Shown here: positions 24,486 to 40,861 of the stretch, in pieces
Layout of the letters: each line of letters begins with the position of its first letter
Numbering within the stretch: the stretch's first letter is position 1
Assembly: GCA_018436595.1 (NCBI GenBank)
Contig: JAHDLC010000010.1
Span: 1 to 64,000 of the forward strand
Length of the DNA stretch: 64,000 nt
DNA from: Synergistaceae bacterium
GTDB lineage: Bacteria > Synergistota > Synergistia > Synergistales > Aminobacteriaceae
Direction: 5' to 3'
Notes under the pieces: generated by a model
What the model was told of the DNA's origin: nothing
Seen by the model: the letters and a program-made list of their open reading frames with translations, nothing else
Databases searched by the model: none
Translations under genes and position numbers: made by a program

Positions 24486-24506
24486 AGTTCATTTTTCTTT
24501 TTGAGC

Positions 24507-24536: not shown

Positions 24537-24542
24537 ATCAAA

Positions 24543-24572: not shown

Positions 24573-24611
24573 AGAAAGAGCGGTCCCATATCCGCGAGAG
24601 GAGCGTTCCGA

Positions 24612-25265: not shown

Positions 25266-25347
25266 CGGTCCCGTTGTTTTAACGCTGTGGCATCGAGTTT
25301 TCTACTGATAGCATTTCAATTCCGGGTTCAGCTTCAGAAAGGGGGGT

Positions 25348-25416
25348 GCTTTTCGCCGCTCCGTACTCCTGCGGTGAGCGGCGCGCGGCGGAGCCTGTCC
25401 GCCGGGGGCAGAGGAA
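25348..25416 (+). promoter_or_regulatory. Structured leader before the 2-oxoacid dehydrogenase genes
   Basis: CGCCGCTC pairs with GAGCGGCG, and GGCGGA pairs with TCCGCC just after it. GCTCCG in the first arm can instead pair with CGGAGC in the second hairpin, so the two folds exclude each other. No T run follows. It may be a 5' regulatory structure or only GC-rich chance. Confidence 0.3.
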
Positions 25417-25447
25417 CCAAGACCAGAATTCTGACGAGGTGATCTTC

Positions 25448-26452
25448 ATGTGTGCAATGCCGGTACGGAAAGAGGCGACTCTTCCTCTTGCACGGTACGA
25501 TAAAGAAACGCTGAAGTTTTTCTATGAGACCATGGTGAAGATCCGCAATTTCGAACTCACCGTGGAGAAATTTTTCTTTGACGGAGAGATCCCCGGGTTC
25601 GTCCACCTGTACATCGGCGAGGAAGCCACTGCCACGGGCGTCATGGCGAACCTGAGAAAGACCGACTATATCCAGAGCACCCACAGGGGGCACGGCCACA
25701 CCATCGCCAAGGGCGCCGACCTGAAGCACATGATGGCCGAGCTGTTCGGAAAGAGCACGGGAAGCTGCAAGGGCAAGGGCGGCTCCATGCACATCGCCGA
25801 CTTCAGCGTGGGCATGCTGGGCGCCAACGGCATCGTGGGCGGCGGTTTCACCATGGCCACCGGCGCGGCGCTCGCCCAGAAGATGCAGAAGACCGACGGC
25901 GTCGCCGTGGCCTTTTTCGGCGACGGCGCCTCCAACAGGGGAACCTTCCACGAGGCCGCCAACATGGCCGCGGCATGGAAACTTCCCGTGATCTTCCTCT
26001 GCGAGAACAACCAGTGGGCCTCCACCACCCCCTACCGGACCACCACCTCGGTGGACGACATCGCCGACCGGGCCCAGGGCTACGGCATGCCAGGCGTGAT
26101 CGTGGACGGCAACGACGTGTTCGCCGTGTACGAGGCCGCGAAGGAGCTCATCGAGCGGGCCCGCAGGGGAGAAGGGCCTGCGATCCTCGAGTGCAAGACC
26201 TACAGGATCAAGGGCCATTTCGTTGGCGACCCCGAGATGTACCGCACCAAGGAAGAGGTCCAGAAGGTCCTCGAAGAGACGGACCCCATCCCCCGGTTCG
26301 AGGCCAAGGTTCTCAAGGCCAAGGCCATGACGAAAAAAGAGCTCGAGACCATCAGGACCAGGGTGGAGAAGGAGCTTGCCGAGGCGCTGGAGTTCGCCCG
26401 TACCTCTCCGGAACCCGAAGTGTCTGCCCTGTATGAAGGGCTCTATGTGTAA
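25448..26452 (+). CDS. Thiamine-PP-dependent 2-oxoacid dehydrogenase E1 alpha
   Basis: 334 residues from ATG 25448 (GAGGTGATC ribosome site). E1 alpha decarboxylates the 2-oxo substrate with TPP and passes the acyl group to E2. TPP motif GDGASNRG (158-165) to NN (187-188); HRGHGH at 79-84. Similar in size to pyruvate and acetoin dehydrogenase E1 alpha subunits. E1 beta follows 13 bases later. Pyruvate, acetoin or a branched-chain oxoacid are all possible; pyruvate or acetoin favoured. Confidence 0.93.
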   Translation: MCAMPVRKEATLPLARYDKETLKFFYETMVKIRNFELTVEKFFFDGEIPGFVHLYIGEEATATGVMANLRKTDYIQSTHRGHGHTIAKGADLKHMMAELFGKSTGSCKGKGGSMHIADFSVGMLGANGIVGGGFTMATGAALAQKMQKTDGVAVAFFGDGASNRGTFHEAANMAAAWKLPVIFLCENNQWASTTPYRTTTSVDDIADRAQGYGMPGVIVDGNDVFAVYEAAKELIERARRGEGPAILECKTYRIKGHFVGDPEMYRTKEEVQKVLEETDPIPRFEAKVLKAKAMTKKELETIRTRVEKELAEALEFARTSPEPEVSALYEGLYV

Positions 26453-26465
26453 GGCGGTGGACAGA

Positions 26466-27437
26466 ATGAAGACAATCACTTTTTCCCAGGCAACCCTTGA
26501 AGCCATGCAGGAGGAGATGGCCCGGGACGAACGGGTGTTCGTCATGGGCGAGGATATCGCCCGCCAGGGCGGAATTTTCGGCCAGTTCAAGGGCCTTCCC
26601 GCCCAGTTCGGAACCGGACGGATCATGGACACCCCCATCAGCGAGACGGCCATCGTCGGTGCCTGCATCGGCGCCGCTCTTGCGGGAATGCGTCCCGTGG
26701 CGGACATGCACTTCGCCGACTTTGCCGGGGTCTGCTTCGACGAGATTTACAACCAGATGGCCAAGATCTACTACATGTTCGGCGGCCAGAAGCCCGTCTC
26801 CATGGTGCTCCGGGCCCCGGACGGCCTCGTGAACCAGGCCGCTGCCCAGCACTCCCAGTCCCTCGAGGCCTTTTTCTGCCACATTCCCGGCCTGAAAGTG
26901 GTCATCCCCTCCAACCCGGCGGATGCCAAGGGCCTCCTGAAGGCAGCCATCAGGGACGACAACCCCGTCATCTACTTCGAGCACAAGGCTCTCTTCTCCA
27001 TGAAGGGGGAGGTTCCCGAGGAGGAGTATGTCACTCCCATCGGCAAGGCGAAGGTGGTCCGGGAAGGCAAAGATGTTACCCTCGTGTCCTATTCCATGAC
27101 CATGAATCTTGCGGTCAAGGCGGCCGACATGCTTGAAAAAGAGGGGATCAGCGTGGAGCTCATCGACCTGAGGACCATTTCTCCCATCGATAAAGAGACG
27201 ATCCTCAATTCTGTGGCAAAGACGTCCCGGCTCGCCATCGCCCATGAAGCGGTGAAGCAGGGCGGCGTGGGCGCCGAAATATCGGCCATTGTCGCCGAAG
27301 AGGCCATCGACTGCCTCGACGCCCCCATCGTCCGGGTGGGCGCTCCCTTCACCCCGGTGCCCTTTGCCCGGCCGCTGGAGCAGGCCTACCGCATCACCCC
27401 CGACAAGATCGCTGCGGCGGTCCGGGGAATGATGTAA
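26466..27437 (+). CDS. Thiamine-PP-dependent 2-oxoacid dehydrogenase E1 beta
   Basis: 323 residues from ATG 26466. Transketolase-like E1 beta, with the conserved MGEDIARQGG near residue 27, the RIMDTPISE segment with the catalytic Glu near 60, and the C-terminal domain containing DLRTISPID. It forms the alpha2beta2 E1 with the upstream gene. The downstream PPC-domain gene starts 15 bases after the stop. Confidence 0.95.
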   Translation: MKTITFSQATLEAMQEEMARDERVFVMGEDIARQGGIFGQFKGLPAQFGTGRIMDTPISETAIVGACIGAALAGMRPVADMHFADFAGVCFDEIYNQMAKIYYMFGGQKPVSMVLRAPDGLVNQAAAQHSQSLEAFFCHIPGLKVVIPSNPADAKGLLKAAIRDDNPVIYFEHKALFSMKGEVPEEEYVTPIGKAKVVREGKDVTLVSYSMTMNLAVKAADMLEKEGISVELIDLRTISPIDKETILNSVAKTSRLAIAHEAVKQGGVGAEISAIVAEEAIDCLDAPIVRVGAPFTPVPFARPLEQAYRITPDKIAAAVRGMM

Positions 27438-27452
27438 GAGGGGGAAACAAAC

Positions 27453-27944
27453 GTGTCAGCGGAGAGAGTCTCCTCGGCCCCGGGCACCATCTCGGCGACG
27501 GTTCTCGGGAGAATCGCCCCGGGTGAGGACCTTTTTGCCGCCGTCAGGGAAATCTGCACCCGCCACGGTATCCGGTCGGGGCATATCGCCACCATGATCG
27601 GCAGCCTCCGGTCGGCGGACGTGGTCTGTGTGACTCCCGACCCCGATAATCCCGGGAGGGCGGTCTACCTCGAACCGCTCCGCATGGAGGGCTGCATCGA
27701 ACTGATCACCGTCGCGGGCATTATCGGTGAGGATGACAGGGGAGAACTCTCCGTCCACCTGCACGGCGTTCTCGCGGGAAGCGACATGAAACCCGTGGCG
27801 GGACATCTCGCCGACAGGGGAGAAAACCGGGTGCTTGCCACCGCGGAAGTTGTGATCAATGGTTTTTCCGGAGCGGAATTCGTCCGCTCTTTCGACGAAG
27901 AAACAGGGTTCGTGCTGTTCAAGGTCCGCCCCACCGGTCCCTGA
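27453..27944 (+). CDS. PPC-domain (DUF296) protein
   Basis: 163 residues from GTG 27453. The PPC/DUF296 fold is clear from GRIAPGEDLFAAVREI, IATMIGSLRSADVV and the metal-type HLHG (about residues 102-105). Members in bacteria are small trimers of unknown function, often placed beside carbohydrate or carboxylate catabolism genes; plant members bind DNA via another motif, absent here. It sits between E1 beta and the TRAP genes. Possible ligand sensor or enzyme for the transported acid. Confidence 0.8.
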   Translation: MSAERVSSAPGTISATVLGRIAPGEDLFAAVREICTRHGIRSGHIATMIGSLRSADVVCVTPDPDNPGRAVYLEPLRMEGCIELITVAGIIGEDDRGELSVHLHGVLAGSDMKPVAGHLADRGENRVLATAEVVINGFSGAEFVRSFDEETGFVLFKVRPTGP

Positions 27945-28066
27945 GCGGGCCGGGCGGGGGTCATCCTGTTGCGGCGGGAGGTGATCGGTCCCGTAGGGCG
28001 AACAAGCACCACAACGCGCTGTAGTCAAGAGAAGGTTTCATACCACATACTCAGGAGGTTGAGGGA

Positions 28067-29143
28067 ATGAAAAAGATCGTAGCACTGCTTATCGCTGTTG
28101 CAGTCCTGTGTTCGGTGTCCGTGCCGGCGTTTGCCGCCTACAAGGACGAGTACAAGCTCGACATCGTGCCGAGCCTGACCACCGCATGGGGAATGGGCGC
28201 CCAGTACTTCGCCGATCTCGTGAAAGAGAGAAGCGGCGGCAAGATCAACATCAAGGTCTATCCCGGATCCCAGCTCACCACCGGAAAGCAGACCAACGCT
28301 TTCCTCCTCGTCCGGAACGGCACCATCGACTTCGCCGTCCAGTCTTCCATCAACTATTCGCCCCAGCTTGTCGAGCTGAACCTCTTCGCCCTTCCCTTCT
28401 TCATCGCCAACCAGCCCGACCGGTATGCCGCCCTTGACGCCGTCAAGGCTGGAAAAGCCGGCGAAATGGTCATCAAGGCCATCGAGGACAAAGGCGTGAA
28501 GTTCCTTGCCTTCGGCGAGAACGGATTCCGTGAGCTCACCAATTCCAAGAAGGCAATCAGGACCCCCGACGACCTCACCGGAATGAAGATCCGGGTTGTG
28601 GGCAGCCCCCTGTTCCTCGATACCTTCAGGGCTCTCGGCGCCAACCCCGTGAACATGAACTGGAGCGATACCATGGCGGCCATCCAGCAGGGCGTCGTTG
28701 ACGGCCAGGAGAACCCCATCAGCACCTTCTATCCCGTGAAGATGCACGACTACCACAAGTTCATGACCGACTGGCACTACGTGGTCGATCCCACCCTGTA
28801 CGTTGTGAATCCCGCCGTATGGAAGTCCTTCTCCGCCGAGGACCAGAAGATGATCCAGGCTGCCGCCGTGGAAGCGGGCAAGTACATGATCGGCCTCGCC
28901 CGCATCGGTCTCGACGACGGCACTGCCCAGAAGTACCTCGAGAGCATCGGCAAGGTTCCCGAGATCACCGACTGGTACGGCACCCTGAAGAGCGTCGGCA
29001 TGGAAGTGGCCATCCTGACCCCCGAAGAGACGAAGGCTTTTGCCGACAAGACCGCTCCCGTGCTTGAAGCATGGAAGTCCAAGGTGGGCGAGGAACTCGT
29101 CAAGGCCGCCGAGGCCGATATGGCCTCCGTGGTCAAGAAGTAA
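28067..29143 (+). CDS. dctP: TRAP transporter solute-binding protein, DctP family (system 3)
   Basis: 358 residues with a signal peptide (KKIVALLIAVAVLCSVSVPAFA). AGGAGG lies 9 bases before ATG 28067. Family signatures: ENGFRELTNSKKAI, GMKIRVVGSP with the conserved Arg, and VVDGQENPIS. It lies inside a 2-oxoacid dehydrogenase cluster, so the ligand is probably a 2-oxoacid or a precursor such as pyruvate or acetoin-type compounds. This is inference from context. A hairpin follows at 29163. Confidence 0.94.
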   Translation: MKKIVALLIAVAVLCSVSVPAFAAYKDEYKLDIVPSLTTAWGMGAQYFADLVKERSGGKINIKVYPGSQLTTGKQTNAFLLVRNGTIDFAVQSSINYSPQLVELNLFALPFFIANQPDRYAALDAVKAGKAGEMVIKAIEDKGVKFLAFGENGFRELTNSKKAIRTPDDLTGMKIRVVGSPLFLDTFRALGANPVNMNWSDTMAAIQQGVVDGQENPISTFYPVKMHDYHKFMTDWHYVVDPTLYVVNPAVWKSFSAEDQKMIQAAAVEAGKYMIGLARIGLDDGTAQKYLESIGKVPEITDWYGTLKSVGMEVAILTPEETKAFADKTAPVLEAWKSKVGEELVKAAEADMASVVKK

Positions 29144-29162
29144 GCGGAAGCAGATGAGACTT

Positions 29163-29187
29163 CCGGGGGGAGATTTCCTCCCCCCGG
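29163..29187 (+). terminator. Hairpin between dctP and dctQ (system 3)
   Basis: Perfect 10-bp stem (CCGGGGGGAG, 29163-29172, with CTCCCCCCGG, 29178-29187), 5-base loop, then a second short CCCCGCGGGG palindrome and a pyrimidine tract. A partial terminator or 3'-end stabiliser for the binding-protein message. Confidence 0.65.
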
Positions 29188-29267
29188 GTCCCCGCGGGGG
29201 CTTTCTCTTCTCCTTTCAGGAGAAATGGGGAATTCTCCTTGTCTTTTTCCAGAAGGGATTGTCCGAT

Positions 29268-29738
29268 ATGGCCAAGAAAATTTTCGATCATTTTGAAGAG
29301 ATTCTCGGATCGCTGATCCTCATGGTGATGGCGGTGATCACCTTCGCAAACGTCATCACCAGGTATTTTATCTTCCAGGCGCTGGCGTTCACCGAGGAAG
29401 TCACCATCAACCTCTTCGTCTGGCTTGTCATGCTGGGCACGGCCATCGCCTTCAAAAAGGGAACGAACCTCAGCATGACCTTCATCTACGACCTTCTTCC
29501 CCGAAAAGGGAAAAAAGTCTGCTTCTTCATCGGCACGATCATGTCCCTGGTGTTTTTCGCCCTTCTTGCCTATCTCGGGTATCTCGAGGTCGTTGATGAA
29601 ATCGATCTGGAAGTCACCACTGAATCACTTGCGATTCCCGTATATTACTACACCATCGCCCTGCCGGTCTTTTCCGTCCTGATCTTCGTGCGCATCGTGC
29701 AGGCGGCTCTTGCGACAATCCGCAGGAACGAATACTAG
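29268..29738 (+). CDS. dctQ: TRAP transporter small permease, DctQ family (system 3)
   Basis: 156 residues from ATG 29268 (AGAAGGGAT upstream). Four hydrophobic segments and the family-typical FTEEVTINLFVWLVMLGTAI and KKGTNLSM. A longer reading frame to 29040 overlaps dctP and reads through the intergenic hairpin, so it is rejected. dctM follows 12 bases after the stop. Confidence 0.92.
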   Translation: MAKKIFDHFEEILGSLILMVMAVITFANVITRYFIFQALAFTEEVTINLFVWLVMLGTAIAFKKGTNLSMTFIYDLLPRKGKKVCFFIGTIMSLVFFALLAYLGYLEVVDEIDLEVTTESLAIPVYYYTIALPVFSVLIFVRIVQAALATIRRNEY

Positions 29739-29750
29739 GAGGGACGAGAG

Positions 29751-31049
29751 ATGGAGTCTTTGCTTCACGAACCCGCATTCTGGACGATCGTCCTTTTCAT
29801 CGTGCCGCTCCTGCTCAGGGTTCCCATTGCGGTAGCCCTCGGCATGGGAACGATTTTTGTTGTCTGGAACTGGGACATGGGATACCAGATGCTGTCCTAC
29901 AGCTTTTTCGCCGGCATCGCGAAATTCCCTCTCCTGGCGATCCCTTTCTTCATCCTCGCCGGAGTCATCATGGAAAAAGTCGGCATCGCCGAGCGGATCA
30001 TCAACCTCATCAAGCAGCTTGTGGGTGACATGACCGGAGGCCTTGCCGTGGCAACAGTCATAGTGGCCGCTTTCTGGGGCGCCGTCAGCGGTTCGGGCCC
30101 CGCAACCGTGGCGGCTCTCGGTCTCATTCTCATTCCCGGCATGGCCGAAGCCGGGTACGACAAGGCCTTCGCCGCCGCCACGGTCTCCGTGGCATCGGGC
30201 CTCGCCATCATCATTCCCCCGAGCATCTCTTTCATCGTGTACGGCGACATCATGCAGCAGTCGGTGGGAACCCTCTTCGCGGCGGGCGTGCTTCCGGGTA
30301 TCGTCGTGGCGGGCTGTCTCTGCGTGGCCGTCTACCTGGTCAGCAGGAAGCGGGGCTACCGGGGAGAACCCAGGGGGAGCGCATCCGTTGTATTGAAGTC
30401 TCTCCGGGATGCCTTCTGGGGCCTGTTTACTCCCGTCATCATCCTCGGCGGCATTTACGGCGGCGTTTTCACCCCCACCGAGGCGGCGGCGGTGGCGGTC
30501 TTCTACGGCCTTTTCGTCGGCGTCTTCATCTACCGGACGCTCACCTTCCGGGTGCTCTACGAGATCCTCGCCGAGACCGTGGCCGGAACTTCCGTGGTCA
30601 TGATCGTGGTCACCTGCGCCGGCCTCTATTCCTGGCTCGGCGCCACGGTGGGCCTTATCGACAAGGTTGCCGCCCTGCTCCTCGGCATATCGGAAAACCC
30701 CGTGGTCATCCTGCTCATGATCAACATCATCCTGCTCTTCGCGGGCATGCTCCTTGACGCAATTTCCATCGCCTATGTCTTCCTGCCGATCCTGGCTCCC
30801 ATCATCGTTGCCTTCGGATGGGATCCCATCTGGTTCGGCGTCATGATGACCATCAACATGGCCATCGGGCAGGTGACGCCTCCGGTGGCGGTCAATCTCT
30901 TCGTGGGAGCCCGGATCAGCGGACTGACCATGGAGCAGATCAGCAGACCGGCGGTGCCCATGCTTATCGCATCAGTCATCGCACTCGTCATCATCACCGC
31001 GTTCCCGGGAATCACGCTCTTCCTTCCCAGGCTCATGGGGATGATGTAG
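29751..31049 (+). CDS. dctM: TRAP transporter large permease, DctM family (system 3)
   Basis: 432 residues, about 12 hydrophobic segments. Signatures: LLAIPFFILAGVIMEKVG, GAVSGSGPATVAALGLI, IIIPPSISFIVYG, and the second-half LFAGMLLDAIS. Operon order P-Q-M, followed 67 bases later by the E2 gene. This places the importer between the E1 and E2 genes of the dehydrogenase complex. Confidence 0.95.
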   Translation: MESLLHEPAFWTIVLFIVPLLLRVPIAVALGMGTIFVVWNWDMGYQMLSYSFFAGIAKFPLLAIPFFILAGVIMEKVGIAERIINLIKQLVGDMTGGLAVATVIVAAFWGAVSGSGPATVAALGLILIPGMAEAGYDKAFAAATVSVASGLAIIIPPSISFIVYGDIMQQSVGTLFAAGVLPGIVVAGCLCVAVYLVSRKRGYRGEPRGSASVVLKSLRDAFWGLFTPVIILGGIYGGVFTPTEAAAVAVFYGLFVGVFIYRTLTFRVLYEILAETVAGTSVVMIVVTCAGLYSWLGATVGLIDKVAALLLGISENPVVILLMINIILLFAGMLLDAISIAYVFLPILAPIIVAFGWDPIWFGVMMTINMAIGQVTPPVAVNLFVGARISGLTMEQISRPAVPMLIASVIALVIITAFPGITLFLPRLMGMM

Positions 31050-31116
31050 GCAATGCGTACGCACCAGGCGTTTTGATCTGCGCGCTTAGCGCCGTTCTCC
31101 AGAAGGAGGGTTCAAC

Positions 31117-32430
31117 ATGGCAACACCGGTAACCATGCCCAAGCTCGGGCTGACAATGAACACGGGGGCAATCTCCCGGTGGAACAAGAAGGAGGGGGAA
31201 TCCGTCGCGAAGGGCGAGATTCTCATGGTGGTCGCCACGGACAAGCTGACCTTCGACGTGGAGTCCCCCGAAGGGGGAACGCTGCTGAAGATCCTTGTTC
31301 CTGAAGGAAAGGACGTTCCGGTAGGGGAGCTTCTCGCCTACCTCGGACAGTCCGGTGAGGCCGTTCCCGGAGCGTCCGCACCTGAGCCGGCCGGGGCCGT
31401 CCCGGCTCAGGCCGTTCCTGCGGAGGGGGCGGAAAAGCCTTCTTCCCGGAGCGCCGCCCTGCCCGCGGGGCTGAGGGCGACACCCCTGGCACGGAAGATC
31501 GCCAGGGACGAGGGGATTGACCTTTCATCCGTGCCGGGATCGGGACCGGAGGGCAGGATCGTCCGGAAGGACGTGGAATCCTTCGCGGCCTCCGCCCCGG
31601 AGACCAGAAAGGTCAAGACCAGCCCGGCGGCAGCGAAAGCCGCTGCGGATCTTGGAGTGGTCGTTTCGTCGATTGCAGCGGACGGCCGGGTTATGAAGGC
31701 CGACGTGCTCAAGGCCGCGTCTTCCGCCGCAAGGCCGGCTCCACAGGATATCCGCCTGCCCCTGACCCCCATGCGGAAGGTCATCGCCGAGCGCATGACC
31801 CTGAGCAGGGCCACCATTCCCTCGGTGGCCTACGACATGGACGTGGACTTCACCGCCCTCGCCGAATTCCGGGCGAAGGTGAAGGCCGAAGGAGCAAAGC
31901 GGGGTGTCAAAATCTCCTACAACCATATCCTCATGAAGATCTGCGCGGCGGCAGTGAAGGACGTCCCCCTGGCGAACTCCTCCTTTGACGGAGACGCCAT
32001 CGTTCTTCATGGAAACGTGAACATCGGCCTTGCCGTGGCGGTGGACGGAGGGCTTCTCGTTCCCAACGTGAAGGCGGTGCAGGAGAAGAGCCTCCTCGAG
32101 GTGGCCGAAGAGACCGAACGGCTCGTGGATCAGGCGAGGTCCGGAAAGCTGGCCCTGGAAGACATGCAGGGCGGAACCTTCACCATTACGAATCTCGGCA
32201 TGTTCGGGACGAAAAGCTTCACCCCCATCGTCAACCCGCCGGAGGCGTGCATCCTCGGCGTGAACACCATCACTGAAAAGCCCGTGGCGATGGACGGGGC
32301 AGTGGTCATCCGGCCCATGTCCGTGCTCTCCCTGGTGGCTGACCACAGGATCCTCGACGGTGCCGAAGCCGCCCGGTTCCTCGCCAGGGTCAGGGAACTG
32401 GCGGAAAACCCCTGGCTTCTTCTTCTGTAG
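31117..32430 (+). CDS. Dihydrolipoamide acyltransferase (E2)
   Basis: 437 residues. Order: one lipoyl domain (1-77; lipoylated Lys43 in TDKLTF), Ala/Pro linker, a peripheral-subunit-binding domain (about 121-155, PLARKIARDEG with GSGPEGRI), a second degenerate one (about 168-202, SPAAAKAAADLG with ADGRV), linker, and the catalytic acyltransferase domain from about 213, with the active-site DHRILDG (409-415). Two binding domains are unusual. AGAAGGAGG precedes ATG 31117. A terminator-like hairpin separates it from E3. Confidence 0.95.
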   Translation: MATPVTMPKLGLTMNTGAISRWNKKEGESVAKGEILMVVATDKLTFDVESPEGGTLLKILVPEGKDVPVGELLAYLGQSGEAVPGASAPEPAGAVPAQAVPAEGAEKPSSRSAALPAGLRATPLARKIARDEGIDLSSVPGSGPEGRIVRKDVESFAASAPETRKVKTSPAAAKAAADLGVVVSSIAADGRVMKADVLKAASSAARPAPQDIRLPLTPMRKVIAERMTLSRATIPSVAYDMDVDFTALAEFRAKVKAEGAKRGVKISYNHILMKICAAAVKDVPLANSSFDGDAIVLHGNVNIGLAVAVDGGLLVPNVKAVQEKSLLEVAEETERLVDQARSGKLALEDMQGGTFTITNLGMFGTKSFTPIVNPPEACILGVNTITEKPVAMDGAVVIRPMSVLSLVADHRILDGAEAARFLARVRELAENPWLLLL

Positions 32431-32454
32431 GCCGGGAGGACGAAATGCGGATTG

Positions 32455-32489
32455 CCCGGCGGGAGATATAGCGTCCCGCCGGGTTTTTT
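32455..32489 (+). terminator. Intrinsic terminator between E2 and E3 genes
   Basis: 10-bp stem (CCCGGCGGGA, 32455-32464, with TCCCGCCGGG, 32474-32483), 9-base loop, six T (32484-32489). It lies 28 bases before the E3 start, so E3 is either expressed by readthrough at lower level or from its own promoter. Confidence 0.9.
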
Positions 32490-32516
32490 ATTGAACAGAA
32501 CGGGAGGTTTTTAGAA

Positions 32517-34244
32517 ATGGCTGTTGTGACGATGCCCAAGCTGGGCCTGACGATGAACGAAGGGACGGTCTCCCGGTGGAACAAAAAGGTTGGGGACCGG
32601 GTGGAGAAGGGGGAAATCCTTCTCGTGGTGGCGACGGACAAGCTGACCTTTGAGGTGGAGGCCAACGAGTCCGGTGTGCTGTCCGAGATACTGGTCGGGG
32701 AAGGGGACGCCGCCGCCGTGTCGGCTCCCATAGCCCGGATCGGCGAAGGGGAGACGGGAGATGTTCCGGTGACCGATCCCCACTCTCCCGATGAGGAAAA
32801 AACACTTCCGAAGGCCGTTCCGGCCGCTGCACAGGCTGCCCCCGCCGGCACGAAGAGGGTGGCGGTCATCGGCGGCGGTCCTGGAGGGTATGTGGCGGCC
32901 ATCCGGGCGGCCCAGCTCGGTGCCGAGGTCACCCTCATCGAAAAAGGCGCCCTCGGCGGCGTGTGCCTCAACGTGGGGTGCATTCCCACCAAGGTGCTCC
33001 TCCATACGGCGGAAGCCTACACAGCGGCGAAGGAAGGAGCCCTCATAGGGCTCCGGGCGGAGAACGTATCCGTGGACTGGAGCGGTCTCATGGCGCGAAA
33101 GAAGGCCGTGGTGGAAACCCTTGTAGGCGGCGTGGGCACCCTCATGGCGAGCAACGGGATCACCGTCCTCCGGGGAACGGCCTCCTTCGCCTCCGCCAAA
33201 GAGATCGACGTGGCCCTCAACGATGGCGGGAAGATGACGGTCAGGGCGGACGCAGTCATTGTCGCCACCGGTTCCGAACCTGCGGTTCCCCCCATTCCGG
33301 GCTTCGACCTGGAGGGGGTCATCACGAGCAACGAAGCCCTCTCCCTCGACGGTCTGCCGGAATCGGTGGTCCTCGTGGGCGGCGGCGTCATCGGCATGGA
33401 GTTCGCCTCCATCTTTTCCACCTTCGGGGTGAAGGTCACCGTGGTGGAGATGCTCCCCGAGATTCTTCCCATGATCGACGGCGAGATAGTTTCGATCCTG
33501 AAAGGGGTCCTTTTGAGGAAGGGCGTTGTCTTCCACACCTCCTCGAAGGTCACCGCCGTGGAAAAGAAGGGAAAAAAACTGGCTGTCTCAGTGGAGACCC
33601 CCGAAGGCAAGACGGTCCTTGAGGCGCAGAAGGTGCTCGTTTCCGTGGGCCGGCGGCCCGTGACGAAGGGGCTCGGACTGGAGGCGTTGGGCGTCGCCGT
33701 GGAGCGGGGACGGATACAGACGGACAAGAAAATGGAGACGGCCGTTAAGGGCGTGTATGCCATAGGGGACTGCGCCTCGCCTATCATGCTCGCCCACGTG
33801 GCCTCCCGGGAGGGAGAGGTGGCGGCGGAGAACATTATGGGGCACGGGGTGGAAATGGATTACAAGACCGTCCCGAGTGCAGTCTACACCGCTCCGGAAA
33901 TCGCTTCAGTGGGACTTTCCGAGAAGGAGGCCCTGGAGAAGGGATTCCGGGTGAAGGTCGGCCGGTTCCCCCTCATGGCCAACGGAAAGAGCCTTATCAT
34001 GAACGAGACCGACGGCATGGTGAAGTACGTGGTGGACGAAAAATACGACGAGATCCTCGGGGTGCACCTCATCGGGCCCAGGGCCACGGACCTCATCGTG
34101 GAGGGAGCCCTGGCACTCCGTCTCGAGGCCACCGTGGAGGAAATCCTGACCACAGTCCACGCCCACCCCACCGTGGGGGAGGCCCTGCTCGAAGGGGCCA
34201 TGGCGGTCCGGGGGCAGGCCCTGTCGCTGCCGAAAAAGGCATAA
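32517..34244 (+). CDS. lpdA: Dihydrolipoamide dehydrogenase (E3) with N-terminal lipoyl domain
   Basis: 575 residues, about 100 more than plain E3. N-terminal lipoyl domain (1-78, Lys42 in TDKLTF), Pro/Ala linker, FAD site VIGGGPGGYVAA (118-129), redox cysteines CLNVGC (150, 155) and the C-terminal HAHPTVGE (about 547-554) with the catalytic His-Glu pair. Its lipoyl domain is very like that of the adjacent E2, so the two may have arisen by domain duplication. It reoxidises lipoyl groups of the complex and makes NADH. Confidence 0.95.
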   Translation: MAVVTMPKLGLTMNEGTVSRWNKKVGDRVEKGEILLVVATDKLTFEVEANESGVLSEILVGEGDAAAVSAPIARIGEGETGDVPVTDPHSPDEEKTLPKAVPAAAQAAPAGTKRVAVIGGGPGGYVAAIRAAQLGAEVTLIEKGALGGVCLNVGCIPTKVLLHTAEAYTAAKEGALIGLRAENVSVDWSGLMARKKAVVETLVGGVGTLMASNGITVLRGTASFASAKEIDVALNDGGKMTVRADAVIVATGSEPAVPPIPGFDLEGVITSNEALSLDGLPESVVLVGGGVIGMEFASIFSTFGVKVTVVEMLPEILPMIDGEIVSILKGVLLRKGVVFHTSSKVTAVEKKGKKLAVSVETPEGKTVLEAQKVLVSVGRRPVTKGLGLEALGVAVERGRIQTDKKMETAVKGVYAIGDCASPIMLAHVASREGEVAAENIMGHGVEMDYKTVPSAVYTAPEIASVGLSEKEALEKGFRVKVGRFPLMANGKSLIMNETDGMVKYVVDEKYDEILGVHLIGPRATDLIVEGALALRLEATVEEILTTVHAHPTVGEALLEGAMAVRGQALSLPKKA

Positions 34245-34248
34245 GCCG

Positions 34249-34277
34249 CTGGGGCGGCCCGTCAGGGGCCGCCCCAG
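34249..34277. terminator. Hairpin between convergent E3 and lipoate ligase genes
   Basis: 11-bp perfect stem (CTGGGGCGGCC, 34249-34259, with GGCCGCCCCAG, 34267-34277). Weak T-rich tail on both sides; likely shared by the two convergent genes. Confidence 0.7.
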
Positions 34278-34306
34278 TTCTCAAAATCTGCCCGCAGTTT
34301 TTCGCC

Positions 34307-35287
34307 TTACCCGAAAAGAAAGGCCAGGAATTCCTCCAGGTCCGCTCCCCGGAAGAACCGGTCAAGCTGAACGGCGGAAAGGCGCTCCCGGAGGTCCTCC
34401 TTCCGGAACGGACAGCCTGCCAGAAGTGTTTCCAGCTCCTCCCGGTTTTCCACCCCGAAAAAGTCGCCGAAGAACCGTGCTTCGGCTAGAATTCCGTCCT
34501 TCACGTTCAGCAGCGCCTCCACCTTTCCCCAGGTGAAGCGGCGGACCTTCCTCTCGGTGTACTCCGGGGACTCTCCCCAGTTCCATTCCCAGGTGGCGTA
34601 CTTCGTATCCCTGAGCGTTCCGACGGCCCCTATCTCGTCCGGGGAGAGGGGGCGCTGTTCCGTTCCCGACAGGGAGTCCCGGAGGGCGGCGATGAACTCC
34701 GCCATGGAGAGTTTCACCGGGAGATGGGGGAGGATGTTGGTCACGCGGCTCCTCACGGACTTGAACCCCTTGGAGGTGAACTTCTCCTCGTCCACGGCGA
34801 GGGCCTGACCGAGAACTGAAAGGTCCGAGTCGAAGAGGAGAGTTCCGTGGTGGAGGAGCCGCCGTTTGTCCATGTGCTGGGCGCTCCCCGAAAACTTCTG
34901 CCCGTCGATGGCCAGGTCGTTCCTGCTGTTGAACTCGGCCGTCACGCCGAGTTTTTCCAGGGCCCGAACCACGGGCATGGCGTGCCGGGCGAAGTCGAAG
35001 GGGGTGCCTTCGTCGTTGGGGACGATGAAGGTGTAATTCAGGTTTCCCAGGTCGTGGTAGACCGCCCCTCCGCCGGAGATCCTCCGGACGACCCGGATTC
35101 CCCGCTCCTCCACGAAGGCCCGGTTCACCTCCTGGGCGGTGTTCTGGAACCGCCCCACGATGATGGAAGGTTCGTTTTGCCAGAGCAGGAAGTAGCCGGG
35201 GTGTCCCCCGTCCACGGTCCGGTAGAGGTGCTCCTCCATGGCCAGGTTGAATGCGGGGTCGTGGCTCTGCCCCTCGATGTAGTACAT
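34307..35287 (-). CDS. lplA: Lipoate-protein ligase A
   Basis: 326 residues. Activates free lipoate with ATP and attaches it to lipoyl lysines. Shows the lipoate site RRISGGGAVYHD (68-79), the segment NLNYTFI (about 82-88), and the Lys motif KFSGSAQ near residue 132. A full-length LplA with the C-terminal accessory domain. Its placement next to lipoyl-bearing E2 and E3 suggests it lipoylates them from scavenged lipoate. The upstream (right) region carries repeat copy B. Confidence 0.95.
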   Translation of the reverse strand: MYYIEGQSHDPAFNLAMEEHLYRTVDGGHPGYFLLWQNEPSIIVGRFQNTAQEVNRAFVEERGIRVVRRISGGGAVYHDLGNLNYTFIVPNDEGTPFDFARHAMPVVRALEKLGVTAEFNSRNDLAIDGQKFSGSAQHMDKRRLLHHGTLLFDSDLSVLGQALAVDEEKFTSKGFKSVRSRVTNILPHLPVKLSMAEFIAALRDSLSGTEQRPLSPDEIGAVGTLRDTKYATWEWNWGESPEYTERKVRRFTWGKVEALLNVKDGILAEARFFGDFFGVENREELETLLAGCPFRKEDLRERLSAVQLDRFFRGADLEEFLAFLFG

Positions 35288-35329
35288 TCGATTCTCTCCT
35301 CTCGTCCATTCCTATTTTCCAGCATGGAA

Positions 35330-35463
35330 GCTGAGGGAGGGTTGCCGGGCACAGCGCCCGGGGCAGGAAACCGACAGGGATGTCGGTTTCAGGCGCAGTT
35401 GTCACGGATGACAATGTGCGCCGTCGGCCCAAGCGAGCACCGGTAACGCTCCCCGCAGCCCGG
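35330..35463 (+). repeat. GGA-hairpin intergenic repeat, copy B
   Basis: Closing stem: GCTGAGGGAGGGTTGCCGG (35330-35348) with CCGGTAACGCTCCCCGCAGC (35440-35459). Hairpin 1 is GAAACCGACA-GGGA-TGTCGGTTTC (35367-35390, 10 bp). Hairpin 2 is TTGTCA-CGGA-TGACAA (35399-35414) with outer GGCGCA/TGCGCC pairing. Within the closing stem the C-G pair of copy A is T-A here, a compensatory change. Located between lplA and the 35546 gene, both reading away from it. Confidence 0.85.
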
Positions 35464-35545
35464 TGGTTCTGATGAAAAAACCTCTTGCCAGAAAGGCCGG
35501 CAGGCTTCATTATACAAAATATCCTGCAATGGAGGTGGTGCCGAA

Positions 35546-36418
35546 ATGCTTGATTCCCTTGAAATTCTCACGCTGGTGGAGGATTCCGTGCCCATGCACG
35601 GTCCCTTCGTCGCCGAACACGGCCTGTCCTTCCTTCTGACCGGAAAGAAGAACGGCACAATCGTCCGGGGGCTTCTGGACGTGGGGCAGAGCCCCGAGGT
35701 GCTCTCCCACAACATGAAGGGCCTCGGGATCCGCCCCGAATCCATAGATTTCCTCGTCCTCTCCCACTGCCATTACGACCATACCGGCGGTGTGGCGAAG
35801 TTCGTCGCCTCCACCGGAAAGGCCAATTTTCCCGTGGTGGCCCACCCGGCCCTGTTCCGCCCCCATTTCAAGGCGGATCCCGTCCTGTCCTCCAAGGGGA
35901 TCCAGACCGGTGACGAGCGGGAAGCCATCGAGAAGGCCGGAGGCCGGCTGTTTCTCTCCTCCGACCCCTTTCCCCTGGCCGATGGCCTGGCCACTACGGG
36001 GCAGATTCCCCGGGTGACCGGCTATGAAGGTCCCGGAAAGGCCTTTCTCACCCTGGAGGACGGCAGGGTTGCCCCTGACTCCCTTCCCGACGACATGGGC
36101 ATCACCGCACTGGTGAAGGGAAAGGGGGTGGTGGTGGTGGCCGGCTGCAGCCACTCGGGGATCGTGAACATTCTCAAACGGGTCCGGGAGCTGTACCCCA
36201 ACGAACCGGTGGAAGGCGTCATCGGAGGCCTTCACCTGGTCAACGGCTCCGAGGAGAAGATGGAGAAGACCCTGGAGGGCATCCGGGATATCGGTCCGAA
36301 GTGGATCGCAGCGGGGCACTGCACGGGATTCCCCATGCAGGTCAAGCTTTTCCAGGCCTTCGGGACGGCCTTTTCCCCCCTGTGCGTGGGAAAGAAGTTC
36401 GTGGTCGAAGGAGTGTAG
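35546..36418 (+). CDS. Metallo-beta-lactamase-fold hydrolase
   Basis: 290 residues. Metal motif HCHYDHTGG (His74, His76, Asp78, His79), then a distal GCSHSGIVN with a metal-binding His and AAGHCTGFP near the C-terminus. This arrangement matches the subgroup often annotated as dihydropterin/methanopterin-type beta-ribofuranosyl phosphate synthase-like hydrolases. The true substrate is not known. It stands alone, between repeat copy B and a terminator shared with the convergent exonuclease. Confidence 0.88.
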   Translation: MLDSLEILTLVEDSVPMHGPFVAEHGLSFLLTGKKNGTIVRGLLDVGQSPEVLSHNMKGLGIRPESIDFLVLSHCHYDHTGGVAKFVASTGKANFPVVAHPALFRPHFKADPVLSSKGIQTGDEREAIEKAGGRLFLSSDPFPLADGLATTGQIPRVTGYEGPGKAFLTLEDGRVAPDSLPDDMGITALVKGKGVVVVAGCSHSGIVNILKRVRELYPNEPVEGVIGGLHLVNGSEEKMEKTLEGIRDIGPKWIAAGHCTGFPMQVKLFQAFGTAFSPLCVGKKFVVEGV

Positions 36419-36454
36419 TGCAGAAAGCGGGCTGTCTCTCCGGTGTGAAAACCT

Positions 36455-36516
36455 CCGGTGCCGGCGGGAACCGCAGGACGTCGCTCCCCGCCGGCACCGG
36501 CAGACTGGTGTTTTTT
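36455..36516. terminator. Bidirectional terminator between convergent genes
   Basis: 14-bp perfect stem (CCGGTGCCGGCGGG, 36455-36468, with CCCGCCGGCACCGG, 36487-36500), T6 at 36511-36516 for the plus strand, and TTTT on the minus strand just past the stem. Confidence 0.8.
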
Positions 36517-36517
36517 G

Positions 36518-37288
36518 TCAGGCGAGGCCCAGGAGCTTTTCCTCCCGTTCCCTGGATCCAGAGGCGGCGGCGAGTCGTGCGGCGTATGCCAGCCGCTCGG
36601 CCGTGAACCTGTCCCTCAGGGGCGACGGCAGAAGGTAGGGCTGTCTCCGGGGAGGAAGAAAGGGAGCGGATGCGGCCCGGAAACGGACCTGCCCGGGAAT
36701 GGCGTTCCACACCCTGCTGAAGATGCCGTAGAGCTCGAAACAGTCGCTGAGTCCGAAGTGAGCCAGGGGGGGGCCAAGCAGCTCTTCCGTCTCAGCCGTG
36801 GCACCCGTGGGTGCGAGATCTTCCTTCACCCGGGCGGAAGCTTCCCCGAGCTTCGGCCACTTCCAGCGGCCTCCCCGCTCCGGGCTTCCCGGAATCCGGC
36901 AGAATTCCGTGAGCCCCCTCATGGAGCACCACCATTTTCTTCCCCGGACCGCTTCGGGGGGAAGAAAGGAGATGTCGAAGGAGAGGTTGTGGACCACGAT
37001 CCCCTCGGGGTTCCAGCCGTCCCAGAAGGCGGCGAGACTCGGCCAGTCCTCCAGGAAATGGGGGCCGTACTCCTCCTCCCTGCGGAAGTGGCCGATTCTG
37101 CCCGGTGTGAGCCCGTGAACCGATTCCGTCCGTGGATCTGGGCGCTCCTCGGGGTAATAGAAACGGTTGAAAAAATCCAGGATCCGGCCGTCCCCCGTGA
37201 AGACGATGGATGACGCCGAAACTGCGGAAGCAGCCCGAAAGCCGTTGGTCTCGAGGTCAAAGACGGCAAATCTTCTGTCGGATGCCAT
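36518..37288 (-). CDS. DEDD-family 3'-5' exonuclease (DnaQ-like)
   Basis: 256 residues from ATG 37288, which has AAGGAGAGG upstream; an ATG at 37333 is less well placed. RNase T/DnaQ fold: Exo I DLETNG (Asp11, Glu13), Exo II region VVHNLSFDISFL, Exo III-like LAHFGLSDCFELYG with His and Asp spaced as in DEDDh enzymes. Such proteins are either proofreading-type nucleases or stand-alone RNA/DNA exonucleases. Divergent from the uracil-DNA glycosylase gene, so a DNA repair pairing is possible. Confidence 0.85.
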   Translation of the reverse strand: MASDRRFAVFDLETNGFRAASAVSASSIVFTGDGRILDFFNRFYYPEERPDPRTESVHGLTPGRIGHFRREEEYGPHFLEDWPSLAAFWDGWNPEGIVVHNLSFDISFLPPEAVRGRKWWCSMRGLTEFCRIPGSPERGGRWKWPKLGEASARVKEDLAPTGATAETEELLGPPLAHFGLSDCFELYGIFSRVWNAIPGQVRFRAASAPFLPPRRQPYLLPSPLRDRFTAERLAYAARLAAASGSREREEKLLGLA

Positions 37289-37385
37289 GGATGATCCTCT
37301 CCTTGCGTGCCACCGAATACAATTCTCCCGCAACGCTTGCGGTGAGAAAAACCAACTCTCCCGGCAGAGAGAAAGGAATGACTTG

Positions 37386-37982
37386 ATGTTTCAGGAATCC
37401 TTCGAAGAACTGCGGCGGAAAGCCTCCGCCTGCACCCTGTGCCCTCTCTCCGGAACACGCGCCAGGGCTGTTTTCGGCGAGGGGCCGGAAAACGCTCCGG
37501 TGATGCTCGTGGGGGAAGCCCCGGGCGCCACCGAAGACCGGACGGGGAGTCCCTTTACCGGGCGCTCCGGAAAGCTCCTGACGGCTCTTCTGGATGGGGA
37601 GGGGCTGCCCCGGGAGAAGATCTTCATCACCAACATGGTGAAATGCCGTCCTCCCGAAAACCGCCTCCCCGCGAAGGGCGAGCTGGCGGCCTGCAGGCCC
37701 TTCCTGGCTGCCCAGGTGGCCAGGCTCCGGCCCAGGCTTCTTCTTTCCGTGGGGAATGTTCCGACACGGGATTTTCTCTCCTCCAGGGAGGGGATCACCA
37801 CCCTCCGGGGAAGGTTCCATACCTGTCTGTGGCAGGGAATTCCCCTGACGGTACGCCCCCTCTTTCATCCCAGCTATCTCCTCAGAAACAGGAGTTTTGC
37901 CGAGGGCACGCCTGGGCACCAGACAGTGCGGGATATCCGGGAGATCCTCCGTTTTCTCATGGAGGCTATCCCCGGATTCTGA
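37386..37982 (+). CDS. Type-4 uracil-DNA glycosylase (4Fe-4S)
   Basis: 198 residues from ATG 37386. Excises uracil from DNA. The four iron-sulfur cysteines are seen at C16, C19, C87 and C103 (ACTLC, VKCRPP, AACRP). Active-site motif GEAPG (43-47), F-TGRSGKLL (about 57-65) and the HPSYLL motif near residue 167 are typical of family 4. Its 3' end overlaps the convergent activase gene by 17 bases. Confidence 0.94.
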   Translation: MFQESFEELRRKASACTLCPLSGTRARAVFGEGPENAPVMLVGEAPGATEDRTGSPFTGRSGKLLTALLDGEGLPREKIFITNMVKCRPPENRLPAKGELAACRPFLAAQVARLRPRLLLSVGNVPTRDFLSSREGITTLRGRFHTCLWQGIPLTVRPLFHPSYLLRNRSFAEGTPGHQTVRDIREILRFLMEAIPGF

Positions 37983-38667
37983 CCTCTTTCGCGAAGGGGA
38001 GGACCCGTTCCCTGAAGGCTTCCGCAAACCAGGCCGGCAGGGAGGACGTCTCCGCGAATGCGGGATCGAGAGTGTTTCCCGGACGAAAACGCTGCAGCAC
38101 ATACAGGGGAGCTCCCCGGATCATGTCACCGATTCCGGGGGCGTCCTCCAGCCCGTGGATGCCCGGAACCAGGGTGGTCCGGAACTCGAAGGGGATGTTC
38201 GAGCCGAGGAGGAGGGAGATGCTTTTTTCCACAAGGGAAAGATCTCCGTTCCATCCCGAGGCCAGGGGGTATTTCTCCCTGGAGGCTTTGATGTCCATTG
38301 CGGCGTAGTCTGCCAGATTCCGGTCAAGGATGTGCTCCAGCACACCGGGGCGGGCGCCGTTGGTGTCGATCTTGATCTTCAGCCCGAGGGAACGAAGATC
38401 CCCGAGAAAGGAAATGAGCCCCTCCTGGATCGTCGGCTCCCCGCCGGTGATGCAGACGCCGTCGAGAAAGTTCTTCCGCCTCTCAAGGTCGCCGAGGATG
38501 TCCCGCCATTCGAAGGAATCGCCTCCCATCCCGGGGATGACCAGTTCCGGGTTGTGGCAGAACGGGCAGCGGAAAGGGCAGCCCCTGAAAAAAACCACCG
38601 CCGCGGCCGACCCGGGATAATCGAGAAAACTCGTCTGGATGTATCCTCCTATGGAGACAGGGTTCAT
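37966..38667 (-). CDS. Radical-SAM activating enzyme (NrdG/PflA-like)
   Basis: 233 residues from ATG 38667 with AGGAGGGGAAG upstream. The radical SAM motif is CPFRCPFC-type (C30, C34, C37). GITGGEPT-like CITGGEPTIQ follows at about residue 91. It resembles the class of anaerobic ribonucleotide reductase activating proteins; a role in making a glycyl radical is inferred. No glycyl-radical enzyme gene is near. A much longer frame extends upstream to 39450 but it is an antisense shadow. Confidence 0.9.
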   Translation of the reverse strand: MNPVSIGGYIQTSFLDYPGSAAAVVFFRGCPFRCPFCHNPELVIPGMGGDSFEWRDILGDLERRKNFLDGVCITGGEPTIQEGLISFLGDLRSLGLKIKIDTNGARPGVLEHILDRNLADYAAMDIKASREKYPLASGWNGDLSLVEKSISLLLGSNIPFEFRTTLVPGIHGLEDAPGIGDMIRGAPLYVLQRFRPGNTLDPAFAETSSLPAWFAEAFRERVLPFAKEVRIRG

Positions 38668-38744
38668 GGCCCTTCCCCTCCTTTTCCGCTCCATGATACC
38701 ACCCCTTCGGGAAGAGAGAAATCTCCGCCGGAAAGAAAAAGTAT

Positions 38745-38784
38745 TATAATATAACGTTACAGGCGGAAGCGTCGGCCTGTAACG
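38745..38784 (+). promoter_or_regulatory. Promoter and overlapping inverted repeat before the 38836 gene
   Basis: TATAAT at 38745-38750, then CGTTACAGGC (38755-38764) and GCCTGTAACG (38775-38784), a perfect 10-bp inverted repeat with a 10-base centre starting at the predicted transcription start. It may be an operator or a 5' stem-loop. No clear -35. Confidence 0.5.
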
Positions 38785-38835
38785 ATTCCCCCGCCCGGTG
38801 CGGCGGCAGAGAGAGCACGGAGAGGAGAAACGGCA

Positions 38836-40110
38836 ATGGGGCACCCGATCAGTCCCCTTTCGGGAAGAGGCGGCACCGCCGGGAGGATTCCGGCGGAAAG
38901 AGAAGAGAGAGGCTCCAGAAGCCCCGCAAGAGGTGCTGCCGGGACTCTTTTTCTTTTGTTCGCCTGCGCCGTGGTCCTGTATCTCCTCTTTCATCCCCAT
39001 CAGGGCCTCTCTCCGTCCGGGGCGCTGCAGATCGCCAAAAGCTCCAGGGATCTTTCTCCTCTTCTGAGCAACGAGGAATTCATCAAGACCTACGAGGATG
39101 CGGCCAACGCTCCGGAAACCATAGGGTGGCTGGTGGACCGGACCCGGGCGGGCGGCTTCCTTGTATCCTACATCTATCTCGACGGGAAGGGCGATTTCAA
39201 GGGATGGTTTTTCGAGGTCCCGGCAGGGAGCGGCGTGGCAAGAAGGGTCACCCGGTCCATGGGGGAGCATTACGCCGCCCTGATTGACGACCGGTTCGAG
39301 AGAAGCACTCCGGATGTTTCCGAAAAGGACAGGGTCACCCGGTGGGTGAAGGAAGCAAAGGCCCCATCCGGCGACGGCACCGTTATGGAGGCGATTTCCA
39401 GGGAGGTCGGCAGGACCGGGGTCAGGAAGGAGTACGGCTGGATGGCCCACCCTCTCGGAAACGGAAAATGGCTGGTCGGCTTCGTGTACGAACCGGCAGG
39501 GGCGGGAGACGGCGAAAAGAGAGGGTGGGTCTTTCAGGTCAACACCAGGGAGATACCTCCTCTTCCTGGGAGAGGGCTTCCCCTTGGAACGGGATCGGTG
39601 GATGATCTCCTCCGCCTTTTCGGAGGCATGGGGGAGGCGCCCCTGCCTCCGCTGTCCATACCGGCTGACGGAACGGATTGTATCCCTCTCCGGTCTTTTC
39701 TCGAGTCCACCCTCCGGCGCTTCGGCGGTTCTCCTTCGGAGGCAAGGGATCGGTTGGGCGAGCCTGGGGCAGTGAGGCGCAGGTCCGTCAGGCAGCCTTC
39801 ACATCCCGTGGAGGGAAAGCCGGTGCTCACCATGATGTGGCCCGGACTTTCCCTGGACTTTTCCGGGGTGCCCGGCAGCGAGCGCCTGGTGGCTGCCGTG
39901 GTGAAGGGGGGGGATCACCCTTTCGGTCCTGATCCGGGAATTCGCGTGGGGGATCCCTTTGTCAGGGTGTCGGAACTTCTCGGACAGCCGGACGGCAAAA
40001 GTTCACAATCGATGGTCTATACCGGCCGGGACGTTTCCTGCGATCTCATTTTCAACCTGAGGAAGGACGGCCGGATCGCCGGAATGTTCTTCTCCGTCGC
40101 GGCGGAATGA
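38836..40110 (+). CDS. Membrane-anchored hypothetical protein
   Basis: 424 residues. One hydrophobic segment near residues 36-54 after a basic N-terminus (residues 1-35, many Arg), the rest probably extracytoplasmic. The C-terminal half has two similar LSLDFSG and IRVGDPFVRVSELLG-like segments. GDPFVRVSELLGQPDG resembles the start of small beta-lactamase-inhibitor-like (SmpA/BLIP fold) repeats, but I cannot assign a family. The J-domain gene follows 31 bases after it and may be cotranscribed. Confidence 0.7.
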   Translation: MGHPISPLSGRGGTAGRIPAEREERGSRSPARGAAGTLFLLFACAVVLYLLFHPHQGLSPSGALQIAKSSRDLSPLLSNEEFIKTYEDAANAPETIGWLVDRTRAGGFLVSYIYLDGKGDFKGWFFEVPAGSGVARRVTRSMGEHYAALIDDRFERSTPDVSEKDRVTRWVKEAKAPSGDGTVMEAISREVGRTGVRKEYGWMAHPLGNGKWLVGFVYEPAGAGDGEKRGWVFQVNTREIPPLPGRGLPLGTGSVDDLLRLFGGMGEAPLPPLSIPADGTDCIPLRSFLESTLRRFGGSPSEARDRLGEPGAVRRRSVRQPSHPVEGKPVLTMMWPGLSLDFSGVPGSERLVAAVVKGGDHPFGPDPGIRVGDPFVRVSELLGQPDGKSSQSMVYTGRDVSCDLIFNLRKDGRIAGMFFSVAAE

Positions 40111-40141
40111 GCCGAAGACGGACAATTTCAAGGAGGTTCCC

Positions 40142-40519
40142 ATGTCCCTGTTGCTGAGGCTGCTGCTGAAAGCGGCGCCGCTCCTTCTGTTCCTTCTCCT
40201 GTCCCGGGCTGTCCGGGACCTCTTCCGGTCCTACCAGGCGGGGGAAAGAGCCTATGACCGGCCCCCCCATGGAGGATCGGGGCCGGGTGCATCCGCGGCC
40301 GGCCGGAATTCCCGGAGGGACCCCTACAGCGTCCTTGGCTGCTCACCCTCCGCGACGGACGGAGAGATAAAAAAAAGGTACCGGGAGCTTCTCGGGAAAT
40401 ATCATCCCGACAAGTTCATCGGCCAGGATCTGGACGCCGACTTTGTGGATCTGGCGTCAAAAAAGTTCCAGGAGATCCAGGAAGCCTACGATGCAATCCG
40501 GTCACGGAGAGGATTCTGA
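40142..40519 (+). CDS. Membrane-anchored J-domain (DnaJ-like) protein
   Basis: 125 residues: N-terminal hydrophobic segment (about 3-22), a Gly/Ala linker and a C-terminal J domain (about 60-124) with the HPD motif at residues 88-90. It lacks the Gly/Phe, zinc-finger and substrate domains of DnaJ, so it would recruit Hsp70 to the membrane (compare DjlA-type proteins). Ribosome site AAGGAGG is before ATG 40142. Followed by repeat copy C rather than a terminator. Confidence 0.88.
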   Translation: MSLLLRLLLKAAPLLLFLLLSRAVRDLFRSYQAGERAYDRPPHGGSGPGASAAGRNSRRDPYSVLGCSPSATDGEIKKRYRELLGKYHPDKFIGQDLDADFVDLASKKFQEIQEAYDAIRSRRGF

Positions 40520-40532
40520 CGCTATGGAACCT

Positions 40533-40781
40533 AAATCCGCGGCTTTTCCTGGCAGAGGGAGTGTCGCTGGGCATAAGGTGAATTCGCCCCGCCAGGGGCG
40601 AAGAGATCATCCCCTGGGGGACAGCGCCCGGGCCGAGAAACCGACAAGGATGTCGGTTTCACAGGCAGGCAACCGGCGAACGCAGGGAGCCGAGTTGATC
40701 GCCTGGGCAGTTGTCAAGGACGACAATCTGCACCGGCGGACCAAGCGAGCACCGGTGACGCTCCCCGCTGCCTGCGGATTT
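40533..40781 (+). repeat. GGA-hairpin intergenic repeat, copy C (expanded)
   Basis: 249 bases, starting with AAATCCGCGG (as copy A) and ending GCTGCCTGCGGATTT. Closing stem GGCAGAGGGAGTGTCGCTGG (40551-40570) with CCGGTGACGCTCCCCGCTGCC (40752-40772). Hairpin 1 is GAAACCGACA-AGGA-TGTCGGTTTC (40637-40660); hairpin 2 is TTGTC-AAGGAC-GACAA (40711-40726). Two insertions, about 60 bases on the 5' side and about 45 between the hairpins, expand it compared with copies A and B. Confidence 0.85.
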
Positions 40782-40861
40782 AGGTGGAAGCATCTGAGGT
40801 TATTTTTCATAATAATCTTATAAGAGAGCTTCATTTTCGTTTCGTTCAGTGGTACGGCCCA

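Follow-up and report, generated by a model that had tools for sequence, protein, structure and literature searches.

The window, by which we mean the whole 64,000-nucleotide stretch of the Synergistaceae contig that was analyzed, contains three copies of a structured repeat, A, B, and C, all on the + strand, together with a remnant of a further one. Their coordinates and parts are as follows.

17217-17252, + strand: right-arm remnant of the MITE, without the GGA core (86% identity over 36 bases)
23318-23479, + strand: copy A, a short-type MITE with decayed ends (predicted RNA core 23337-23468; ortholog in genome G001, deletion remnant in G004)
35304-35474, + strand: copy B, the entire insertion, with decayed terminal repeats (bounds from the empty site in G004:C58)
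35329-35460, + strand: predicted RNA core of copy B, with outer stem, inner stem, and two GGA hairpins (from fold and Rfam)
35343-35445, + strand: pair of 35343 with 35445, which is T-A in copy B but C-G in the other two copies
35367-35390, + strand: hairpin 1 of copy B, loop G-GGA at 35377-35380 (ACAGGGATGT, exact CsrA SELEX core)
35392-35422, + strand: hairpin 2 of copy B, loop C-GGA at 35405-35408 (TCACGGATGA)
40525-40529, no strand: left target duplication TGGAA of copy C (from empty-site comparison)
40530-40784, + strand: copy C, a 255-bp full-length MITE with 13-bp terminal inverted repeats at 40530-40542 and 40772-40784 (empty sites in G001:C1 and G004:C86)
40574-40621, + strand: left-arm hairpin module of copy C, 48 nt, not in A or B
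40662-40705, + strand: inter-hairpin module of copy C, between the GGA hairpins, about 44 nt, not in A or B
40785-40789, no strand: right target duplication TGGAA of copy C (from empty-site comparison)

Several lines of evidence identify the repeat, as judged from its ends and flanks, as a non-autonomous MITE with IS1380-type ends. First, its copies are bounded by 13-bp terminal repeats (CCTAAATCCGCAG) that lie 154-282 bp apart, and between them there is neither a transposase nor any coding capacity; beside a 165-bp form we find forms of about 205, 212, and 255 bp that carry the left-arm module, the inter-hairpin module, or both. Second, among the 109 copies with both flanks and recognizable ends, 67 have an exact 5-bp target duplication and 76 have one that matches in at least four of five positions, compared with 3.4 when the flanks were shuffled, and the length of the duplication peaks at 5 bp and at no other value. 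Third, the site of copy C is empty in G001:C1 and in G004:C86, with the piece missing from G001 being exactly 255 bp plus one TGGAA, and the site of copy B is empty in G004:C58. Finally, a 549-residue open frame in G004:C76 matches PF13701 (IS1380-type transposase) and belongs to an element whose ends are nearly identical to those of the MITE and which is flanked by the 5-bp duplication CGGTC. The ends of this IS (CCTAAATCCACA and CCCAAATCCGCAGG) have 1-3 mismatches to those of the MITE, and exact ends are present on other IS copies; deleted versions of the element are found in G003, and its end lies at contig ends of G000, the window genome, and of G001. The CCTAAATCCGCAG sequence occurs 7, 35, 0, 3, and 135 times in G000 to G004, respectively, and its reversed control zero times. 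Because the MITE and the IS have both their ends and their duplication length in common, we infer that the MITE is mobilized in trans by an IS1380-family transposase, which would recognize the CCTAAATCCGCAG ends, move the element, and duplicate 5 bp of the target.

The repeat thus resembles bacterial MITEs that are moved by a parent IS, and the IS1380 family itself, in being short and non-coding, with terminal inverted repeats, a 5-bp duplication, and the ends of a full IS. It differs from other IS-derived MITEs in that its interior is unrelated to the IS and bears a conserved double hairpin of a protein-binding type. ERIC, REP/BIME, and similar sequences are intergenic palindromes that are likewise dispersed and highly structured; their ends, target duplication, and GGA loops set them apart from the MITE. 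One relative of the MITE, L200:373-818 (G001:C1:179372-179817), carries the 48-nt left-arm hairpin module several times in tandem and has lost the GGA core.

In the window genome we count 19 copies that have the two-hairpin core, as well as fragments. When 83 genomes of the family were searched with a covariance model of 14 window-genome copies, there were 18 matches in this genome, 27 in G001, 40 in G004, and none in the two other members of the genus, with a single match outside the genus, in another genus; a DNA search recovered further full-length copies in G004. The 121 copies that we assembled occupy 106 distinct insertion sites (more than 100 of them in three species), about nine of which (e.g., L063/L103 and L013/L117) are common to more than one species, and this small number implies that the MITE turns over fast. 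One 4.4-kb contig, G004:C9 (L136), is 99% identical to the window within an otherwise more distant genome that has the empty site at C86, which probably means that the assembly is contaminated or contains a second strain.

In a preliminary description of this locus, a paired base change in the outer stem was taken as a sign of selection on an RNA structure. The changes themselves are real. The outer arms are as quoted there, GTGTCGCCGG and CCGGTGAC in copy A, GGGTTGCCGG and CCGGTAAC in copy B, where they pair, and GTGTCGCTGG and CCGGTGAC in copy C; the pair 35343-35445 does differ between C-G and T-A, the C-to-T change reported for copy C does leave a G-T pair (arm GTGTCGCTGG against CCGGTGAC), and hairpin 1 is indeed constant across the three copies over at least 9 bp. 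The extra modules of copy C, the terminal inverted repeats, the target duplications, and the ANGGAY motif in both loops go beyond that description. The interpretation that it drew from the paired change stands in part. Among the 14 copies of the window genome, double changes are found at 4 of 53 pairs, compared with 1.4 in shuffles, and 2 of 500 shuffles reach 4. For the 121 copies, nearly all of which come from the same genus, we used an independent MAFFT alignment that ignores structure and mapped the changes on a tree; 12 double-change events were counted, against a mean of 2.6 (range 0-8) in 30 deals in which partners were assigned at random. Double changes therefore exceed chance, but the stems do not point to a strand or to selection on RNA: the C-G to T-A change goes back to one event, which 7 copies have inherited, there are 189 pair-breaking events, and wobble asymmetry, which would be a sign of selection on the sense RNA, is absent (64 G-U on the sense strand versus 73 A-C, that is, G-U on the antisense strand; p = 0.49). 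Given this lack of wobble bias and the number of pair-breaking events, stem covariation alone is no proof of selection on the sense RNA, and it could have its source in DNA hairpins or in gene conversion among copies. Gene conversion, which would weaken the tree-based counts, is likely, since copy A differs by a whole module between G000 and G001 at the same site.

An alignment of all matches by the covariance model was dropped because it mixed sense and antisense matches. A comparison of orthologs as a test for purifying selection also failed: copy B is identical in G000 and G001 but lies inside a patchwork, 74-99.8% identical, that suggests recombination, and the orthologs of copy A appear to be gene-converted. 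Along window positions 24442-40530, identity to G001:C1 changes abruptly from one block to the next, between 74% and 99.8%, which suggests recent recombination.

An RNA fold of the repeat is nevertheless likely, on grounds other than those first put forward. The sense transcript is predicted to adopt a Y shape in which the outer stem is topped by two hairpins, with a folding energy of -77 kcal/mol for copy B (z = -5.7 versus shuffles) and z = -7.6 versus shuffles for full-length copy C. The antisense strand of copy B folds almost as well (z = -5.7), and stability therefore does not identify the functional strand. The loops, in which one base is free and the adjacent GGA nearly fixed, are a stronger sign of RNA-level selection than the stems. 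The loop of hairpin 1 has the form ACA-N-GGA-UGU, where N is C in 70, A in 21, T in 18, and G in 9 copies and each GGA position is kept in 117 of 118; the loop of hairpin 2 has the form UCA-N-GGA-Y-GA, where N is A in 78, C in 24, T in 12, and G in 5 of the 119 copies. On the tree N changed 19 times in hairpin 1 and 17 times in hairpin 2, among the highest counts of all columns, whereas the three GGA columns changed 1, 1, and 1 times in hairpin 1 and 1, 8, and 1 times in hairpin 2. The second G of hairpin 2 is replaced by A (GAA for GGA) in 12 of 119 copies, mostly as TCACGAACGA; about 12 copies would thus keep a single CsrA-type loop.

At the level of sequence, a free N beside a nearly fixed GGA gives both loops the signature of CsrA sites. 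The SELEX consensus for CsrA is RUACARGGAUGU, in which ACA and GGA are invariant and the GGA lies in a hairpin loop (PMC7652899). An exact ACA[AG]GGAUGU is present in 29 of 118 hairpin-1 loops, and ACANGGAUGU in 108. The stems of the MITE are longer than the short ones favored by SELEX, in which very stable structure seemed to be a disadvantage (PMC7652899). The window genome has one copy of csrA, beside a FliW-like frame, and its product scores 85.9 bits to PF02599 and has kept the RNA-contact residues L4 and R44. Within the genus, csrA is present in G000, G001, and G004, which have many MITE copies, and is missing along with the MITE from G002 and G003, yet G002 has an IS1380 transposase and G003 has deleted IS copies. 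This association covers five genomes, two of them fragmented, and is suggestive only. Across the family it is uninformative, since csrA is common (66 of 83 genomes, nearly all without the MITE) and the MITE is essentially limited to one genus.

The only Rfam match in the window, at 35323-35466, is to TwoAYGGAY (RF01731), with 45.2 bits against a gathering threshold of 43; neither another Rfam family, the CsrB/Rsm type included, nor a tRNA was matched in the window. The gathering score is also exceeded by G000:C38 and by several copies of G001 and G004, and most other copies fall just under it, at 38-43 bits. TwoAYGGAY was proposed as a CsrA-binding sRNA in a motif study (PMC4333381), and its type in Rfam is Cis-reg. 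Like its members, the MITE has an outer stem and two adjacent hairpins with CANGGAYG loops; the loops are ANGGAY, as in the AYGGAY type, but N is any base and not a pyrimidine alone. Plain membership of the repeat in this family, with an ancestry in common with the clostridial and gammaproteobacterial RNAs, would account for the copies that reach the gathering score, copy B among them, and is possible, if somewhat doubtful. The scores above threshold are marginal (43-47 bits versus 110-138 for the best Lachnospiraceae copies), and most local copies match at the two-hairpin center only, which makes convergence as likely. The MITE differs from the family in its extra modules and its IS1380-type carrier, and its outer stem is unrelated in sequence to that of RF01731 members: the two are not alignable, have nothing evident in common, and are bridged by no sequence in the 83 family genomes.

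The double hairpin is also found in distantly related bacteria. The pattern GACANGGATGTC followed by YCANGGAYGR is present in at least 119 stretches in GTDB genomes, and in many of these a long outer stem encloses two hairpins; hosts among the matches listed include Pseudomonas, Xanthomonas, Stenotrophomonas, Cellvibrio, Shewanella, Lachnospiraceae, and others, and some matches in seemingly coding sequence are probably due to chance. All 15 of the distant genomes with the pattern that were searched for csrA carry it. RF01731 matches number 32, 14, 10, and 3 in four Lachnospiraceae/Eubacterium genomes, 26 in Pseudomonas argentinensis, and 10 in a Pantoea. The copies in Pseudomonas and Lachnospiraceae resemble one another over about 250-450 bp, which places the motif within dispersed repeats of these genomes as well. 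By such counts and alignments, TwoAYGGAY occurs as a dispersed repeat of many copies in Lachnospiraceae, Pseudomonas, and Pantoea. In the literature, subscription papers aside, we found no mention of a mobile or high-copy nature of TwoAYGGAY and no earlier account of repeats that both move and bind CsrA, whether as MITE, transposable element, or REP. RF01731 copies in Lachnospiraceae, Ruminiclostridium, and Pseudomonas (L229, L221, L365, L366, and G083/G094/G095) often form divergent pairs 200-400 bp apart, and in several cases there are terminator-like hairpins at the outer ends of these pairs.

We favor, with some reservation, the hypothesis that the repeat is an IS1380-moved MITE that carries a CsrA-binding double hairpin and acts as a decoy or a local switch. 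The sense transcript of its inner module would fold into the outer stem and the two ANGGAY hairpins, and the two loops most likely bind CsrA, with each element taking up roughly one dimer. Transcription of the module probably comes from read-through or from promoters close by, because the copies are intergenic, lie preferentially beside gene starts, and are somewhat more often co-directional with their flanking genes. Relative to the GGA strand, both neighbors run in the same direction at 32 sites and in the opposite direction at 15 (p = 0.02 with shared sites removed), a bias that varies between p = 0.013 and p = 0.07 with the threshold of our home-made open-frame gene caller, the stricter setting giving 0.07. 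Once transcribed, the element may titrate CsrA as a decoy, the more strongly the more copies there are, or it may form a leader or tail through which the host mRNA responds locally to CsrA; the two roles are not separable here. As in CsrB/CsrC and RsmX/Y/Z, the sponge sRNAs, there are repeated GGA hairpin loops that fit the CsrA consensus. Those sRNAs are encoded by a small number of dedicated genes, each with many GGA sites, whereas the MITE offers two per copy, in tens of copies spread by transposition.

That each insertion merely places its host gene under CsrA, through a 5' leader or a 3' tail and with no global titration, seems rather unlikely to us. The Cis-reg type of TwoAYGGAY would agree with such a role, as would a preference for gene starts: 37 copies lie between divergent genes versus 5 between convergent ones, in addition to the 32 co-directional sites, where the median distance is 53 nt from the stop of the gene upstream and 91 nt to the start of the gene downstream. 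Several copies, however, lie outside a leader, either upstream of promoter-like sequence or just past terminators (by eye), and the few insertions common to species make a conserved regulon unlikely.

We consider it unlikely, and a little more so, that the element is a purely selfish MITE, in which the palindrome has a role in transposition or is carried along neutrally as DNA and the GGA loops persist by descent with no current function. The decay-like changes in the stems, with their many pair-breaking events and no strand-specific wobble bias, the equal folding of the antisense strand, and the existence of relatives without the GGA core (L200, with its tandem left-arm modules, and G000:C44) are all what such an element would display. 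However, a DNA palindrome requires no specific loop, and here N varies in both loops while the adjacent GGA does not; in addition, unrelated dispersed repeats of distant bacteria bear the same two loops. That the element has its own promoter and makes from it a separate sRNA that acts in trans, as CsrB and RsmY do, would be in keeping with the paired GGA hairpin architecture and with the sRNA proposal for TwoAYGGAY, but it is improbable given that no conserved promoter or terminator was seen by eye in the 165-bp form and that a T-run within 45 nt downstream is present in only 22 of 121 copies.

What is new in the favored reading, a MITE with a putative CsrA-binding cargo, is the union of a mobile element with a CsrA-type module, together with a sign that this union recurs. 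We tentatively raise the further hypothesis, to which we give low confidence, that the double GGA-loop module was acquired separately, in several phyla, by short dispersed elements that are unrelated to one another and act as mobile decoys of CsrA; candidate carriers are the IS1380-type MITE described here and the long-stem repeats present at 10-32 per genome in some Lachnospiraceae, Pseudomonas, and Pantoea. If this is true, the copy number of a transposon would determine the level of a regulator that acts globally after transcription, and would do so even in bacteria that are believed to control CsrA solely via FliW. If CsrA does bind these loops, a burst of transposition would rewire or titrate a global regulator in a single step, RNA antagonists of CsrA would extend past the Gammaproteobacteria to bacteria whose known antagonist is the protein FliW (PMC7652899), and the uncharacterized TwoAYGGAY would gain an identity, as dispersed repeats, and a testable function.
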